From IMG/VR virus record IMGVR_UViG_3300037119_000330, positions 1 through 22,380 of that record: a DNA stretch of 22,380 nt; one strand, written 5' to 3'. Source of the DNA: a virus. A program made the position numbers and the translations under genes. This document shows positions 9,826 through 22,380 of the stretch, piece by piece. The first letter of the stretch is position 1; every line of letters begins with the position of its first letter. Below the pieces are notes generated by a model. That model was given only the letters and a program-made list of their open reading frames with translations, ran no database searches and was not told the origin of the DNA.

Positions 9826-10296
9826 TCAGCCTTCGGCTGCTTCGACGGCAGCACGAAGCTCGTCGTAGTCCATGGTGGACCGCCCGGCGATCTCCAGTTC
9901 GGTTGCCCGTGCGTAGAGTTCCGTCTTGGTCGGCTCATCGTCCGGATCGCCCGGATCGGAAGCCACAGAAGCGGACGGCCCGGACTTGCTGACCCGAGAT
10001 GATCCCGGCCCGCCAACGCCCGTTTCGCGCTCGCCCACCCAGTCCTGGAAGGACTGGACTTCCTTCTGGGGCTGCGCCATGGCCTCTTCGTGCTCCTTGC
10101 AGCGCTGGCGCATTTCGATGTCCGGATCTTCGTCGTGATCCGCGACCGGCGCGTCCGTCTCGTAGGCGGAGTGCTTGGAATCCGGTGCAGCGCCGACGTA
10201 ATTCTCGTCGTACTCGCGGACTCCGGAATCGGCAAGCGACTCTTCGTATGCCTCCTGGCGCTCTTCCTCGGTCAGTTCTTCCTCGACTTGTGCCAT
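9826..10296 (-). CDS. Acidic protein with C-terminal Rho-N/HeH-like motif, next to major capsid
   Basis: This 156-residue, strongly acidic protein has an AAGGAG Shine-Dalgarno six bases before its ATG at 10296. The N-terminal 70 residues are Glu/Asp-rich. The middle is Ser/Gly/Pro-rich and probably disordered. The C-terminal 34 residues (TKTELYARATELEIAGRS, then a YDELRAAVEAAE helix) resemble the small two-helix Rho-termination N-terminal or HeH/SAP-like motif often found in proteins encoded beside phage major capsid genes. Function is not established; it may be a head accessory or connector-region protein. Its EAYEESL segment is encoded by a 28-base stretch nearly identical to one in the small acidic gene at 22054-22377. 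A short hairpin (9828-9840) overlaps its stop codon. Confidence 0.75.
   Translation of the reverse strand: MAQVEEELTEEERQEAYEESLADSGVREYDENYVGAAPDSKHSAYETDAPVADHDEDPDIEMRQRCKEHEEAMAQPQKEVQSFQDWVGERETGVGGPGSSRVSKSGPSASVASDPGDPDDEPTKTELYARATELEIAGRSTMDYDELRAAVEAAEG
9828..9840 (-). other. Small stem-loop overlapping a stop codon
   Basis: CAGCC and GGCTG (9828-9832 and 9836-9840) form a 5-bp stem with a 3-base loop, covering the last codons of the Rho-N-like gene and reaching its stop. It immediately precedes the large inverted repeat at 9780-9821, so the transcript would carry two hairpins in tandem here. Confidence 0.4.
10233..10260 (-). repeat. 28-base coding repeat, copy 1 (EAYEESL motif)
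   Basis: Aligned by eye with 22098-22125, 25 of 28 bases are identical and no gap is needed. Both copies are read in the same frame and encode R-x-EAYEESL. Here it lies in the N-terminal part of the acidic gene beside the major capsid. Confidence 0.7.
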
Positions 10297-13381: not shown

Positions 13382-14840
13382 TAACGGTCCTTGGTCGGTC
13401 GTCATTGACGAGGTTGGGCTTGTCGGCCGTGCGATCGGTGCGCTCGGTCCGCTGGCGATCATCGACGGCCGCAGTCGGAGCCAAGACCTGCTGGACTTGC
13501 TTGAGTGTCATGCCAAGAGCGACCCCCATCTCCTCCAGGTCTGGCTTGACGGTCCCACCACGGATCAACTCCACGACGATCGCACGAAGCGTCTCGGAAT
13601 TGTCCTTGCCCATCGATCGAGGCTCCCACTCCACTCGCGGAGCATTCGGGCTGAAGTTGTAAGCCTTGATCCGCTGGCAAAGGTACTGGTCGATGTAGAC
13701 CTTCAGGTCCGCTGCCATGCTGTTGAGCGCCGTGAGCCAGGTCTGCGTGTGCTGCACGCCAAGGTTCAGGCTGCCCCGGTCGCCGGAGCGCATCAGGAGC
13801 ATGGGAGTGAAGATCGAAAGACTGATCTCTTCGTCCAAGCGGGCCAGGTAGCGCTCAAAGTCAGCGCCACGCATCTGGGCCTCAAGGTACTCGATGTCCC
13901 ACTCGTACTCGGACCGGTTGCCCGTCGCCGTCTCGTCGCGATCAGAGGGCAGAACGACCTTGCCGCCGCTACGCACGGAGTCGATAGCGGCCTCCATCGC
14001 CATCTTGGCGCTGATCTTGATGAGGTTCCCATCCTCCATGAAGGTGTACTCACGCTCCAGGGGGGCACGGCCCACGGGGACCGGCTCACCAAACCGTTCG
14101 AAGTACCTGTTGGCGAACAGGTGGATGATGATGGAGAAGTACCACGGCATGAAGGCGGGCTTGAGGAGATTGCGACCATAGTAATCGCCACGCTCCATGA
14201 GGCACGGGTACCAGAGCGTGTGCTCCGGTCGGATCGGGTAGCCAAGGCCGAACTTGTCGATGCCGTCGTAGATCTTGACCTTCGGCTTGATGACCTTGCC
14301 GGGAGGCCCAAGCACGTCCTCTGGTCGAGGCACGTAGTTGGACTCGACCTCCTTCCAATGGACACGGCAGTCTTCCGGAGCAAGATCCTTGATCTTGTCG
14401 ATGAACAGCCAGCGCCCCGAAGATTCGTTATCCCACTCCAGCGCGATCGGGCTGTACCCGGCCCAGTACGCCGTGCCCAACCCCCGCACCAGCGGAGTCC
14501 AGATCAAGTGCATGTTCTCCTCCACCACGTCAGCGATGTCCTGGCGTTCGCACGTGATCTTCCAGTCAATCTGGTGGAGCATGAAGGACATCAACGACAG
14601 CGAAGCGTTGATCTGCGGGTGGCTTCGCATGTTGGAGTAATCGGCCAGAGTCAGCTTGTCCAGGTCGAACATGAGCGCCTGCGAGCCGGGGATTCCGCTG
14701 TACTGGGAGAACTGGCTCTTCTGGTCGAACGCCGTACCGAGTCGCGGCGGGTCGGCCTTACGGAAAGAGAACACAGGTCCTGGCTTTCCGTGGCCGTTGG
14801 TACCAGGGAGCGGCAACTGCATCTGTTCTGTATCAGGCAT
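13374..14840 (-). CDS. Portal protein (DUF935 / Mu gp29-like)
   Basis: This 488-residue protein would form the dodecameric ring at one capsid vertex, through which DNA is pumped and to which connectors attach. It starts 3 bases after the terminase stop, with AGGAAG upstream. The segment at residues about 205-260 (PEHTLWYPCLMERGDYYGRN, then LLKPAFMPWYFSIIIHLFAN) matches the DUF935 portal pattern of Mu-like and many actinophage portals. Later come KVVLPSDRD, a core-forming FERYLARLDEEIS helix and LLMRSGDRGSLNLG, which lies where portals of this type usually have a G-S/G-L motif. The last 35 residues are charged and probably disordered. Following the large terminase directly is the standard order. 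No MuF-like head morphogenesis gene follows it. Confidence 0.9.
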   Translation of the reverse strand: MPDTEQMQLPLPGTNGHGKPGPVFSFRKADPPRLGTAFDQKSQFSQYSGIPGSQALMFDLDKLTLADYSNMRSHPQINASLSLMSFMLHQIDWKITCERQDIADVVEENMHLIWTPLVRGLGTAYWAGYSPIALEWDNESSGRWLFIDKIKDLAPEDCRVHWKEVESNYVPRPEDVLGPPGKVIKPKVKIYDGIDKFGLGYPIRPEHTLWYPCLMERGDYYGRNLLKPAFMPWYFSIIIHLFANRYFERFGEPVPVGRAPLEREYTFMEDGNLIKISAKMAMEAAIDSVRSGGKVVLPSDRDETATGNRSEYEWDIEYLEAQMRGADFERYLARLDEEISLSIFTPMLLMRSGDRGSLNLGVQHTQTWLTALNSMAADLKVYIDQYLCQRIKAYNFSPNAPRVEWEPRSMGKDNSETLRAIVVELIRGGTVKPDLEEMGVALGMTLKQVQQVLAPTAAVDDRQRTERTDRTADKPNLVNDDRPRTVSG

Positions 14841-18175: not shown

Positions 18176-20435
18176 AATCTTCCTGCGGGTACTTCTTGCC
18201 ATCAGGTGAGGCCGGGAGTCCAGCGAAGCCCTCCATCGAGACGTAACAAGTCTTGCAGAACTTCCGCTGACCGGTGTCGCGCTCCAGTTGGATCTCAGCC
18301 ACCTGCCCACTGGTCCGCTCGGCATCGATGAACTTGGCGCGTTCATCGGCATTGAGCCTGCGATAGAACTTGGCCTTGTAGAGATGACTCTTCTCGGGTA
18401 GCTCGTCGTGGTCCTTGTACCACTGCTCGATCCACGCCACGAACTCACTAACGGCATAGTCGGCCTCGCTCGACGCCACATGCTTCATCAGGTGAGCATA
18501 GGCCGGGATCAAGTACGTGTCAGCGAACCGCACGGCGCTGGCGTACGTCGGCCGGTCAACCATCGCCTTGCCGTTGTTGAGCGCCAGGGCAAATGCGATC
18601 TTGAATACGGTGTCCCACAACCGGCCGTAGAGAGGGTGCTCGCGCTGCATCGGGAAGATGCGGTTATGAACCGGCCCAGCCGGATCGTTGCCGTACGCGA
18701 TCGCATCGTCCGTCAGCGGAGCTATCCACTTGACTCCGCGACGGCAGCGCTTCCAGACCGCTTCGAACTCGTCGTAGTAGTCGGGGTCCGGCACCTTCGG
18801 ATTGTCGTGAAGGGGGAACACCGTCCTGCCTCCGAAGATCGGAACGATCCTGCCCATGAACCCACTATGCAGGTCGCCGTTCGCCACCAGATCGCGCAGC
18901 GACCGCTCCTGCGTCGTGAACGTCGCCATGAGGAAGGAATCGGACACTTCATCGATGCCAGAGCCCTTGGTCTGGTGACGTACTGCAATCTTGGGGTTGA
19001 TGCCGGAGTTACGGAAGTCATAGAACGTGATGAGCTTCGACTTGAAGTCCCCACCTGAGCCAGCCCGACGGGTTCGGGAGATGAACTCCGCAAACTCATC
19101 CTCGTGGTACCAGGCCGTCGTCGGAACCTCCAGCTTCATTACCGCATTAGCAGGGTCCTCGATCTCTGTCTTGATCCCATAGACCAGTGCCTCCGGGGAA
19201 CCCATCTGAGGGAGAATCTTCAGCCCCTCGCCGTCGTCGCGACGGAATGGGACCACCGATTCGAAGAGATCGGACATGCGTGACACCGTGAAGGACTTGC
19301 CGGTGCCGGACGGGCCGATCAACAGGGTCATCAAGGCTCCGGAGTGGATGACGCCACCGCCGCCCTCGACGTGGACACACTGACCGGCACACGCGCCGAG
19401 TGCCTGGAGCCCCAGCGCCAGGAAGTACTCCACCGGAGCCCAAGGATAGTGCTCGGTATGATACTTCATCCAACGATCCAAGAAGGTGTCCTCCTCGATC
19501 GCCAAGATCGACCAGTCCATGGGCGGTATCTCGTCAGACTCCTCCTCGGTCTGAAGATCGGACGTGGTGAGCACCAGCCCTCGCTCCATCTGCTCGGTCG
19601 AGATCGTGATTGGCTCACTCGCTTCGGATGAGGGCGGGACGACAGGGATCAACGGCTCATCCGCCAAGGGGTCTACCGGCTCAAAGGTGATCTCCGGAAC
19701 GGGGGCCGGTTCTTCCCGTTCCGGACCATCAGGGCGGGACGATGGCCAATCTTGGTCATCTACCTCGACCATGTACTCGCCATCCGGTGTCTGGACGATG
19801 GCGATTCCAAGCTCCTCGGCCATCTCCACAACGATCTTGCGGAAGTCGGACGACCGATGGAACCCTGACGGGTCCAGCCCGTACTTGCGGGCCGCGTAGA
19901 AGTCGATTACATCCCCACCCGACTCACACTTGCCGCAGTGCCAGAGGTTCTTCTCGCGATTAGCCCAAGCACTCGGATTATTGTCGACGTGGGAATCAAA
20001 GGGACACCTGAACTTGATCCCCTCGATGCGGTTGGCTCGAAGGGGGTGATTCTCGGGCTTCCCCCACTTGCGAACGGCGACGAGGATGCCGACGCGTGAC
20101 TTGATCTCAGGGATGTAGTCCGGACCACGGTTCTCCAACTCCTCGGGCGGTTCAGGCACGTCGGCCAGGAACTCTTCGGGTATCTCGACCGGCGCATGGA
20201 CGGTCGGCGCGTGACTGGCAGCCGACTCGTCGGCTCTGTTCTTGTCGATGACCTGACGGTTCAGGCCGACAAGCTGGAACTTTCTTGCCAATCCACCAGG
20301 GGCGACCCGTTCGCGCCGTTCGGTCTTCTCCGACGACTCGTCTGGACCGTAGAGAGCATCCAGCAATTGCTCTATCTCGGCAGGACCGATCATTCCTTGG
20401 TCGAAGGCAGATGAGATATCATCGAACGGAGTCAT
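18150..20435 (-). CDS. CHC2 zinc-finger / DUF3987-type P-loop ATPase (primase-helicase partner)
   Basis: This 761-residue protein begins [20 protein letters not shown] at an ATG overlapping the HNH stop as ATGA. Residues 141-182 form a CHC2-type zinc finger: Cys144, His149, Cys167 and Cys170, then GGDVIDFYA. Residues 230-305 are Pro/Glu-rich and probably a linker. The ATPase domain has Walker A GPSGTGKS (374-381), a Walker B-like [10 protein letters not shown] (Asp446/Glu447) and a [10 protein letters not shown] segment (525-534) whose Arg could be an arginine finger, as in DUF3987 proteins. Usually the CHC2 finger sits on a DnaG-type primase; here it is joined to the motor while the primase catalytic domain is a separate gene upstream. 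It probably unwinds DNA or loads the primase at forks. Confidence 0.85.
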
Positions 20436-20941
20436 GGAGCGCGATTCTTGGCTTGCTCCAGCGATGTTGCCCACCGACAGTTCCCCGGCTCGTAGTTGCC
20501 ATCGTTGTCGATCCGGTCGAGCGACATGCCTTCGGGACGTTCTCCCATGTCGACCAGGAAGTTCTCGAACTTCGCCCAGCGCTCGCAGACAGTAATCTCT
20601 CGCCCTCCGTAACGATGCCATGCAATGCCATTGGGATTACTGCATCGTTGCCTCATTGACTTCCAGGATGAATAAGTCCGAGAAGTCCCGCTTCTGGAAG
20701 TGTGCCCATGAACAGGACGACCCTTGGAATCAGGGTTCCCCGCCAACCCCTGTTCGTGAAGAACACTCATACTCCTCGATGCAACTTCTCGACGCAAACA
20801 CCCACAGGAACGAGTCAATCCGTTCATGAGTGCATACTTGTCAATGCCACGCACGGCACCGCAATCGCACCGGCAAATCCATTTGCGTTGTCGAGTTTCC
20901 GCTTCCAGGACAATCAGTCGTCCGAAGCGTTGACCATTCAT
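20432..20941 (-). CDS. HNH homing-type endonuclease
   Basis: This 169-residue protein has an N-terminal Cys-rich DNA-binding element (WICRCDCG at 21-28, RSCGCL at 45-49), a central [11 protein letters not shown] helix (90-100) and a C-terminal [20 protein letters not shown] nuclease signature (139-158), then LEQAKNR. This combination is typical of free-standing HNH endonucleases of phages, which cut DNA and spread by homing. It overlaps the primase stop (ATGA, 20938-20941) and the ATPase start (ATGA, 20432-20435), so it is cleanly wedged between two replication genes. Two 60-base stretches within it each count 30 G+C, lower than the 35 of 60 I counted in the capsid gene, which suggests acquisition. 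The Shine-Dalgarno is weak; coupling is likely. Confidence 0.9.
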
Positions 20942-21801
20942 GCGTCCAGGCCCAGAGCTTCAGCACACTCTCGGAGTGTGTCGAGACTCCTGCGCCGCGG
21001 GAGATCCCAAGGTGGCACCGATCGTTGCAAATCAAGGAAGTAAGTTCGCATGTTGGCCTCCAAGTGCCACCCCAATGGCAGCCTGAGCAAATTGCCCAAG
21101 CTGTCAGGCTCCGAAAGACCGTCCTGTTTGGGGAAGACCTCGATCTCCACCCAGCCCTCAACGTCGTCCGGGGCGTTCTTGTAGAAACTTTCACTCTTGC
21201 GCCAGAACCCGGCGACATTCTCCAGGACGGAGTGTGCCATGGCTCGGGCCTCGACTCCAGGTACCAGATCACCGAACGGCACGATCACGTGCGCTCCGCC
21301 CCCGGTGACGACCGGCAGGACGGGGAGATTCAGCACCTTGTCCACCTGTGCAGCCACTCTCATCGCCGTCTCACGGACAAGACAGCGCGCCCAGCGATGT
21401 GCCTCCATGTCGGGGTCGTGGAGTGCTGCCTCAAGCGGCCCGACACGGGCATCGGGGTCGAGAGTGCCTTCGTAGGCACCCTGAGCCTCCATCCGCTCCA
21501 GTTCGTCAAGGTCACGAACGATGAAGTACGGACCCTCGGGCTTCAGGTCGATATCGAACGCCACGAACTTGCATGTCGACTCACGACTGTGGAGGTAGGT
21601 GCCGAGACACTTGGTATCGAGCAAGTGTGCCCGAAAGTCGCCTTTGGTGAACTTGCTCCGCTGGGCGACCCATCCGGCCGGTCGTGGTGATCCGTCATGG
21701 TGGGTTCCCGCTGGAAGGTATAAGGCCTTCGCGTCACGGCGCGCGACGAGAAGTGCTCCGAGTAGTTGGGCGGCTGCGTCCGCAGATTGCTGCTTGTCCA
21801 T
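20938..21801 (-). CDS. Archaeo-eukaryotic primase (TOTE-type AEP)
   Basis: This 287-residue protein has the hallmarks of an archaeo-eukaryotic primase, as in TOTE conflict systems and phage PrimPol-like proteins. Residues 71-86 give [16 protein letters not shown], with metal ligands Asp83 and Asp85. [11 protein letters not shown] (166-176) contains the nucleotide-binding His171. VEIEVFPKQ (218-226) supplies the third acidic residue, and [12 protein letters not shown] (235-246) is the strongly conserved strand after it. It would lay down primers, and possibly extend DNA, for phage replication. It lacks its own zinc finger and helicase, which are supplied by the gene two steps downstream. The ATG at 21801 has AGGGAG five bases upstream and a consensus promoter about 60 bases upstream. 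Confidence 0.88.
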
Positions 21802-21860: not shown

Positions 21861-21889
21861 ACACTACTCGCCGCTTCGAAAGGGGTCAA
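21861..21889 (-). promoter_or_regulatory. Promoter P2 for the replication block
   Basis: Minus-strand TTGACC (21889-21884), a spacer of exactly 17 bases and TAGTGT (21866-21861) match the sigma-70/sigma-A type consensus of TTGAC then TAnnnT. A transcript would start near 21854, leaving a leader of about 50 bases before the primase ATG at 21801. It lies just downstream of the hairpin at 21908-21935. Confidence 0.7.
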
Positions 21890-21907
21890 CGTTGGCCGGT
21901 AAACGAG

Positions 21908-21935
21908 CCAGGCCCGCCGGGTGGGGCGGGCCTGG
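21908..21935 (-). terminator. GC-rich 11-bp perfect hairpin, probable terminator
   Basis: CCAGGCCCGCC (21908-21918) is the exact reverse complement of GGCGGGCCTGG (21925-21935), with a 6-base loop. On the minus strand it is followed by CTCGTTTACC, only a short T-run. It stands between the two promoters and would end transcripts from P1 or from the upstream gene before P2. Confidence 0.65.
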
Positions 21936-22017
21936 ACGTTCCCTTTGACAACTCATCGCTTCGGTACTTGGGGGTCCTGTGGGCGATGCGGTTCCCGGAG
22001 CCGTGGACAAGACGGCA
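21908..22017 (-). ncRNA. Candidate small structured RNA between promoter P1 and the hairpin
   Basis: The interval between a consensus promoter (22052-22024) and the GC-rich hairpin (21935-21908) is about 110 bases and holds no ORF with a ribosome binding site. The predicted RNA has a possible CCGT/ACGG stem near its 5' end and a 6-bp CATCGC/GCGATG stem (21988-21983 with 21959-21954), then the terminal hairpin. The 5' end is inferred from the -10 box. It matches no RNA family that I recognise. It could instead be an untranslated leader or read-through spacer. Confidence 0.4.
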
Positions 22018-22023
22018 GCACGA

Positions 22024-22052
22024 ACTCTAGGGGTCTACTTGCATTCTGTCAA
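22024..22052 (-). promoter_or_regulatory. Promoter P1, consensus, directly after a stop codon
   Basis: Minus-strand TTGACA (22052-22047), a spacer of exactly 17 bases and TAGAGT (22029-22024) form the best promoter match in the window. It begins one base after the stop codon of the small acidic gene. Transcription would run into the hairpin at 21908-21935 before reaching any gene. Confidence 0.7.
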
Positions 22053-22053
22053 C

Positions 22054-22377
22054 TCAGTCGAACCGAAATACGTCCTCATCAGGCACTTCCCAGTCGACAA
22101 GCGACTCCTCGTATGCCTCTCGGCGTGGAGTCGCCTCGGCAAAGGACTCGTCGCCCATCAGGGCAGCGACAGATGGGTCCACCCCCAGGTCTGCCTTCTC
22201 GATGCGATCTCGCTCGGCAGCAATGACCGGATGGGTCGGGTCGGTGACGTCGATCGGGTGGCCATCGACGTAGATGATGTTGTCTTCGTCGTGGTCGGGG
22301 ATCTCCTCCTCCGGCTCATCTGCCAGCACAAAGTCCTTGACCTCTTTGAGCGTGATGGACTTGACGAGTCCAATCAT
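22054..22377 (-). CDS. Small acidic protein of unknown function, possibly 5'-truncated by the window
   Basis: This 107-residue protein begins MIGLVKSITLKEVKDFVLAD at an ATG at 22377, three bases from the window edge, so a longer upstream start cannot be excluded. It is rich in Asp and Glu (PEEEIPDHDEDNIIYVDG, then DPTHPVIAAERDRIEKAD). The C-terminus contains RREAYEESL, encoded by the 28-base repeat shared with the capsid-adjacent acidic gene. There is no signal peptide, membrane segment or metal-binding motif, and I do not recognise a family. It is the last gene before the control region at 21802-22053. An acidic regulator or inhibitor is possible but nothing in the sequence shows this. Confidence 0.65.
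   Translation of the reverse strand: MIGLVKSITLKEVKDFVLADEPEEEIPDHDEDNIIYVDGHPIDVTDPTHPVIAAERDRIEKADLGVDPSVAALMGDESFAEATPRREAYEESLVDWEVPDEDVFRFD
22098..22125 (-). repeat. 28-base coding repeat, copy 2 (EAYEESL motif)
   Basis: Partner of 10233-10260, with 25 of 28 bases identical in the same reading frame. It lies near the C-terminus of the small acidic gene. Confidence 0.7.
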
Positions 22378-22380
22378 TCC

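Follow-up and report, generated by a model that had tools for sequence, protein, structure and literature searches.

Phage antisense RNAs are known to control an antirepressor, cII and Q. P22 sar and lambda OOP are encoded opposite to their target, with long complementarity to it, and the c4 RNA of phages P1 and P7 sits on the strand of its target, just upstream of it, and is processed from a longer transcript. Sar and OOP are small RNAs that pair with phage mRNA, sar interfering with translation initiation, and the loops of c4 carry a short complement of the ribosome-binding region in the ant mRNA (PMC12197685). The CI RNA of satellite P4, processed from a longer transcript, keeps phage replication genes off via transcription termination (PMC4825925). 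IsrK of prophage Gifsy-1, with a promoter and a terminator of its own, is encoded on the strand of the cistron that it regulates, directly upstream of it, and is preceded by a regulator gene; it activates translation of its own read-through transcript and controls an antirepressor/antiterminator (PMC4825925). Finally, the put RNA of HK022 consists of two adjacent stem-loops (PMC9378689).

Here, we describe a locus in a virus record of 22,380 bases (G000, the window) where a promoter, P1, probably makes a stand-alone small RNA that would pair with the start of the primase mRNA and hinder its translation. Since the predicted RNA holds a stretch complementary to the start of this message, the phage probably controls in this way the amount of a replication enzyme.

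Gene context and related phages

Almost every gene of the window phage lies on the - strand, including those for the primase, an HNH endonuclease, the helicase, the terminase subunits and the portal, with the tail tape measure at the far end. A twin contig (IMGVR_UViG_3300037070_000817, G001, 24,462 bases) has the same sequence in this region and reaches further upstream; at its right end (L006 6400-6963), tandem CGACCAGGAGCCGCAGGGACGTCGAGCACGGCCG-type units are followed by repeated TAGAAGCGATTGCGT boxes. The closest named primases, from Gordonia and Rhodococcus phages, are about 30% identical, and no DNA similarity to the region was found among named phages. Because of this low identity and a different gene order, these phages were left out of the comparison set. 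Relatives were gathered with a primase profile and then a helicase profile, and closely related replication genes gave seven further phages. The set thus comprises eight related soil phages: the window phage, L015, L016, L086 and L087 (the last four forming one clade), L017, L018 and L106. Primase identity is 41-48% for the relatives compared directly. Most of the more distant primase loci (about 23-35% identity) have a P2-like promoter at best and lack P1. A contig scan of genomes found no close relative, and an IMG/VR search with the motif-plus-promoter pattern of the L015 clade matched only its four known members.

Primase and helicase genes are adjacent in L015, L016, L086, L087, L017, L018 and L106; hence, the HNH endonuclease gene that separates them in the window (20432-20941) looks like a mobile insertion. 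The gene upstream of P1 encodes a product (P0001, 341 aa, read in G001) with a ribbon-helix-helix (RHH)-like segment, which shares 52% identity over 33 aa with its RHH counterpart in the L086 gene. Upstream genes in most relatives give Arc/HicB-like matches, and searches of Pfam and PHROGs with the upstream gene returned no Q-family match, those in relatives being RHH/Arc/HicB-like. A 32-base near repeat (88%) at 22094-22125 and 10229-10260 of the window encodes AYEESL(V/A)D in the C-terminus of the RHH-like gene and in a 156-aa ORF at 9826-10296, and is possibly a short protein motif common to both. The L016 contig (G003) carries a tyrosine integrase at 14298-14729, which suggests that this phage at least is temperate, and a role of the predicted RNA in lysogeny is therefore possible.

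A promoter, a predicted short RNA and a hairpin before the primase gene

The sequence-only reading had described a consensus promoter one base after a stop codon, a GC-rich hairpin downstream and a second promoter before the replication genes, with no ribosome-bound ORF between the first promoter and the hairpin. All these elements were found again (Table 1). P1 (TTGACAGAATGCAAGTAGACCCCTAGAGT) matches 10 of the 12 consensus positions with a 17-base spacer, and its -35 box starts one base past the TGA of the upstream gene (22056-22054). The hairpin (CCAGGCCCGCC-CCACCC-GGCGGGCCTGG) has perfect pairs throughout its stem and is followed by the DNA tail CTCGTTTACC, given also as CUCGUUUACC; this is a poor U-tract, which explains why the terminator scan did not list it. 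P2 (TTGACCCCTTTCGAAGCGGCGAGTAGTGT) would give the primase mRNA a 5' leader of about 50 nt. In the window, the pattern TTGACN-N16-18-TANNNT has three matches, two of them P1 and P2, versus 0.26 expected from shuffles. On the + strand, the RNA segment contains a third TTGACA box (21945-21950), which lacks a properly spaced -10 box and is possibly an operator or a chance occurrence. The two tiny ORFs of the RNA segment (GTG at 22021, 22 codons; ATG at 21959, 30 codons) both lack a good ribosome-binding site. No conserved ORF was found in the related RNAs, L015 and L016 differing by a 1-nt indel in their shared part, and a small leader peptide was ruled out since no reading frame is conserved among them.

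Table 1. Features of the primase locus in the window
Feature	Position	Strand	Basis
Primase gene, 287 aa, archaeo-eukaryotic type	20938..21801	-	phrog_5362 DNA primase E 1.4e-27; Pfam AEP-TOTE E 1.2e-13
Predicted target UGGACAAG, overlapping the primase start codon (AUG at 21801)	21793..21800	-	complementarity
P2, promoter TTGACC-N17-TAGTGT for the primase mRNA	21861..21889	-	sequence, present in 8/8 phages
Predicted small RNA, ~115 nt	21900..22019	-	between P1 and hairpin; predicted ends
Terminator-like hairpin, 11 bp, loop CCACCC	21908..21935	-	sequence and RNA folds
Hairpin H2 (CAUCGC...GCGAUG)	21954..21988	-	RNA fold
Hairpin H1, GCCGU-CUUGUCC-ACGGC, exposing the primase-complementary loop	22000..22016	-	RNA fold
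Predicted pairing segment CUUGUCCA, H1 loop, complement of primase UGGACAAG	22004..22011	-	8-nt perfect complement
P1, sigma70/sigmaA-type promoter of the predicted small RNA, TTGACA-N17-TAGAGT	22024..22052	-	sequence, pattern in 8/8 phages
Upstream gene, 3' part	22054..22380	-	full protein read in twin contig G001

The same order (stop codon, P1, short untranslated RNA, GC hairpin, P2, primase) is present in all eight phages, and in the seven relatives a gene with an RHH-like segment precedes the stop codon and P1. The strict P1 pattern is found at the same position in 8/8 phages, versus 0.037 matches expected from the pattern density in the eight contigs applied to the corresponding stretches taken together. 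Lack of conservation of the promoter boxes in related phages had been named beforehand as grounds for rejecting a small RNA; the boxes are conserved, and this check did not reject it. In L017 and L106, the stop codon is the TAG within the -10 box (TAGAGT); in the other phages, P1 starts 1-7 bases past the stop codon. P2 is also present in all eight, its -35 boxes being weaker (TTGC) in the L015 clade, and an equivalent hairpin, often U-richer than that of the window, was found in each of the seven relatives. Some 3.5-4.6 kb upstream of P1, three contigs carry another conserved promoter, TTGACAAC-GCTATCA--TGATAT-AT (G002:57560-57587, G003:76370-76397 and G007:21453-21480), which is probably the early promoter.

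The predicted RNA would start near 22019-22016 and end near 21900, and its length across the eight phages would be roughly 50-115 nt, or about 55-115 nt in the relatives. In the window it folds better than shuffles (z = -2.3). Fold prediction gives two small hairpins and the terminator for the window phage, L017 and L018, one hairpin and a long terminator stem with an inner loop for the L015 clade, and for L106 a short 5' tail and essentially the terminator hairpin only. Sequence and fold thus differ between lineages, which have too little sequence in common for a covariance model. Compensatory stem changes, the other conservation looked for after the sequence-only reading, are few: in the four-phage clade, two H1 pairs are changed on both sides, no more than chance expects, and between 50 and 394 of 500 shuffles equalled the remaining measures, so that covariation of H1 is weak evidence. 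The Rfam search that had also been proposed matched no family at its cut-off, at gathering or relaxed thresholds; the sole weak match, PK-repBA in L086 (E 0.08), is on the opposite strand and below cut-off.

Such a layout recalls the antitermination loading site of lambda pR'-tR'; in that case, the hairpin would halt transcripts from P1 as long as RNA polymerase is not modified by a phage factor (perhaps the upstream RHH protein) for read-through into the replication and structural genes. The gene order, with a putative DNA-binding gene, a promoter, a terminator and a long co-directional operon, is that of Q - pR' - tR', and conservation is highest in the promoter and the terminator, which L106 keeps with almost nothing between them. 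However, the operon is already served by P2, which lies past the hairpin, the complementarity to the primase described below is not predicted by antitermination, and the upstream gene is RHH-like, not Q-like. RHH proteins of the Arc/HicB type are repressors or antitoxins and are not known to be antiterminators, which counts further against this explanation. We therefore consider it unlikely. Among the three possibilities first raised for this segment (a dedicated small RNA, a decoy or an antitermination leader), the dedicated small RNA is favored by the presence of the unit in 8/8 phages and by its accessible complementarity to the primase mRNA.

The RNA made from P1 might instead act on DNA replication, priming it or opening an origin next to the primase gene, a role proposed for noncoding RNAs of parABS mycobacteriophages (PMC7157519). 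It adjoins replication genes, and actinobacteriophages do have RNA-dependent prophage origins (PMC7157519). This role is nevertheless very improbable: the RNA is short and GC-rich with a strong terminal hairpin, its surroundings lack an AT-rich stretch, a search of the eight contigs (several of them fragments) gave no ParA-like ATPase and complementarity to the primase would not be expected.

Complementarity to the primase message

The trait that persists across lineages is an accessible RNA segment whose complement occurs at the 5' end of the primase message, a link that the sequence-only reading had missed and that our analysis adds. In the window, CUUGUCCA in the loop of the first hairpin would pair with A(UGGACAAG) at the start codon, the primase start being AUGGACAAG. 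In L015, UUCGUCAGCC is complementary to GGCUGACGAA, also at the primase start codon; L086 has CGUCAGCCA, complementary to UGGCUGACG; the segments of L016 (UUCGUCA) and L087 (CCGUCA) are short matches of 6-7 nt. The Shine-Dalgarno is matched in L017 (UCUCCUGUG to CACAGGAGA, with UGUGCUU to AAGCACA in addition) and in L018 (GACUCCA to UGGAGUC, with CUGAACGG to CCGUUCAG in addition). In L106, UGCAUAGAGA is complementary to UCUCUAUGCA, a match over an in-frame ATG that precedes the likely primase start by about 95 nt. Hence the complementary segment changes between lineages yet tracks its own target, as illustrated by L017, L015 and L106.

Within the -30..+20 region of the primase start, the longest perfect complements of the eight phages (8, 10, 7, 9, 7, 9, 8 and 10 nt) add up to 68 nt. 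Dinucleotide shuffles gave 48.2 +/- 2.7, and the highest of 1000 reached 62; the idea of complementarity arose from the same eight sequences, and a final search for relatives yielded 0 additional phages for an independent test. With whole leaders and five lineages, the four-phage clade being represented by one member, P ranges from none of 3000 shuffles to 0.0023, depending on which member is taken. Same-sense identity, used as a control, is not raised over shuffles. With accessibility as a weight on the complement, the primase start comes out on top of all gene starts of its contig (8-83 competitors) in 7/8 phages, including the window (top of 28), and is in the top quarter in L017. By interaction energy with G-U pairs, stacking and opening costs, its ranks are 2, 1, 1, 2, 1, 1, 3 and 1 (second of 27 in the window); by stacking energy without accessibility, it is not first in several phages.

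It could be argued that the hairpin merely ends the upstream operon, whose last gene needs a terminator, that P1 is idle or weak and that the complementarity is due to chance. Taken singly, the 8-nt match of the window phage could indeed be chance (P 0.05 to 0.21, not significant). Such a coincidence is highly improbable given the strict P1 at the stop codon in 8/8 phages and the lineage-level complementarity (P <= 0.0023).

The same complementarity would serve equally in cis, in a leader where read-through RNA from P1 or the upstream operon hides the ribosome-binding site of the primase, so that translation occurs from the P2 mRNA only. Phages such as T4 hide the ribosome-binding sites of late genes in early transcripts, which counts for this explanation. 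However, it leaves unexplained a strong dedicated promoter before the complementary segment in 8/8 phages and a terminator that separates the two RNAs. A cis leader instead of the small RNA is thus quite unlikely, although it may act besides the trans mechanism.

Predicted mode of action and comparison with known RNAs

In the mechanism that we favor, P1 would drive a stand-alone RNA ending at the hairpin and exposing its complementary segment in a loop or a single-stranded 5' stretch; this segment would target the start codon, the Shine-Dalgarno region or the leader of the primase mRNA made from P2, and pairing would block ribosomes and lower the production of primase. From the predicted pairs, repression of primase translation is most likely, and likelier than activation, since the paired bases cover the start codon or the Shine-Dalgarno in most phages. 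In a GC-rich host for which no chaperone is known, so short a duplex may be weak. As P1 resembles an ordinary host-type promoter, the dose of RNA would follow the copies of the phage genome and rise with them, which would result in delayed or self-limiting replication. Plasmid copy-number RNAs provide the analogy for such dosage logic. More tentatively, the RNA might be their phage counterpart: fast-evolving, dosed by the genome, pairing with the primase message to limit replication and keeping a lineage-specific match by paired change. Such an RNA could also give lysogens an RNA-based immunity. If the proposed small RNA is real, these phages adjust how much replication enzyme they make through an RNA that conserves nothing but the match to its target, and searches by RNA family would miss it for that reason; a suitable route to more such RNAs would be to scan the DNA ahead of phage replication genes for promoter-hairpin units and then to test complementarity to the next start codon. 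Replication control would join the known jobs of phage antisense RNAs. In the open-licence full-text literature, we found no description of a phage RNA that targets a primase mRNA.

By the tests run, the predicted RNA belongs to none of the RNA families compared here. Unlike sar and OOP, it lies on the strand of the primase and has matches of 6-10 nt, which sets it outside cis-antisense RNAs. Lambda 6S RNA (pR'-tR') and HK022 put share with it a promoter, a short structured RNA and a terminator adjoining a phage operon; however, no Q-family antiterminator gene was found upstream as in the Q-type pR'-tR' unit, and complementarity to a primase is part of neither system. Two adjacent stem-loops before the terminator, as in put, are clear in L018 only, and this fold is not common to all members, being absent in L106. 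Like P4 CI RNA, the RNA is predicted to control replication genes, but it would have its own promoter and terminator, and translation rather than termination is the proposed level. The layout of IsrK, with a promoter, a short untranslated RNA and a terminator directly upstream of the presumed target gene, is found in 8/8 phages, and a putative regulator gene precedes the RNA as it does in Gifsy-1; unlike in IsrK, the target mRNA would come from a separate promoter, P2, and complementarity to the start region predicts repression. As in c4, segments in loops are complementary to the ribosome-binding region of the target, according to the computational comparison at the level of the group, and the position just upstream of the target on its strand is also that of c4. 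The RNA differs from c4 (RF01695) in not matching its Rfam covariance model, in its predicted target (a primase instead of an antirepressor) and in a predicted promoter and terminator of its own, c4 being processed from a longer transcript together with its target. Hence, the predicted RNA would work like c4 of P1/P7 without being a member of that family: its nearest counterpart in action is c4, and in layout IsrK of Gifsy-1.
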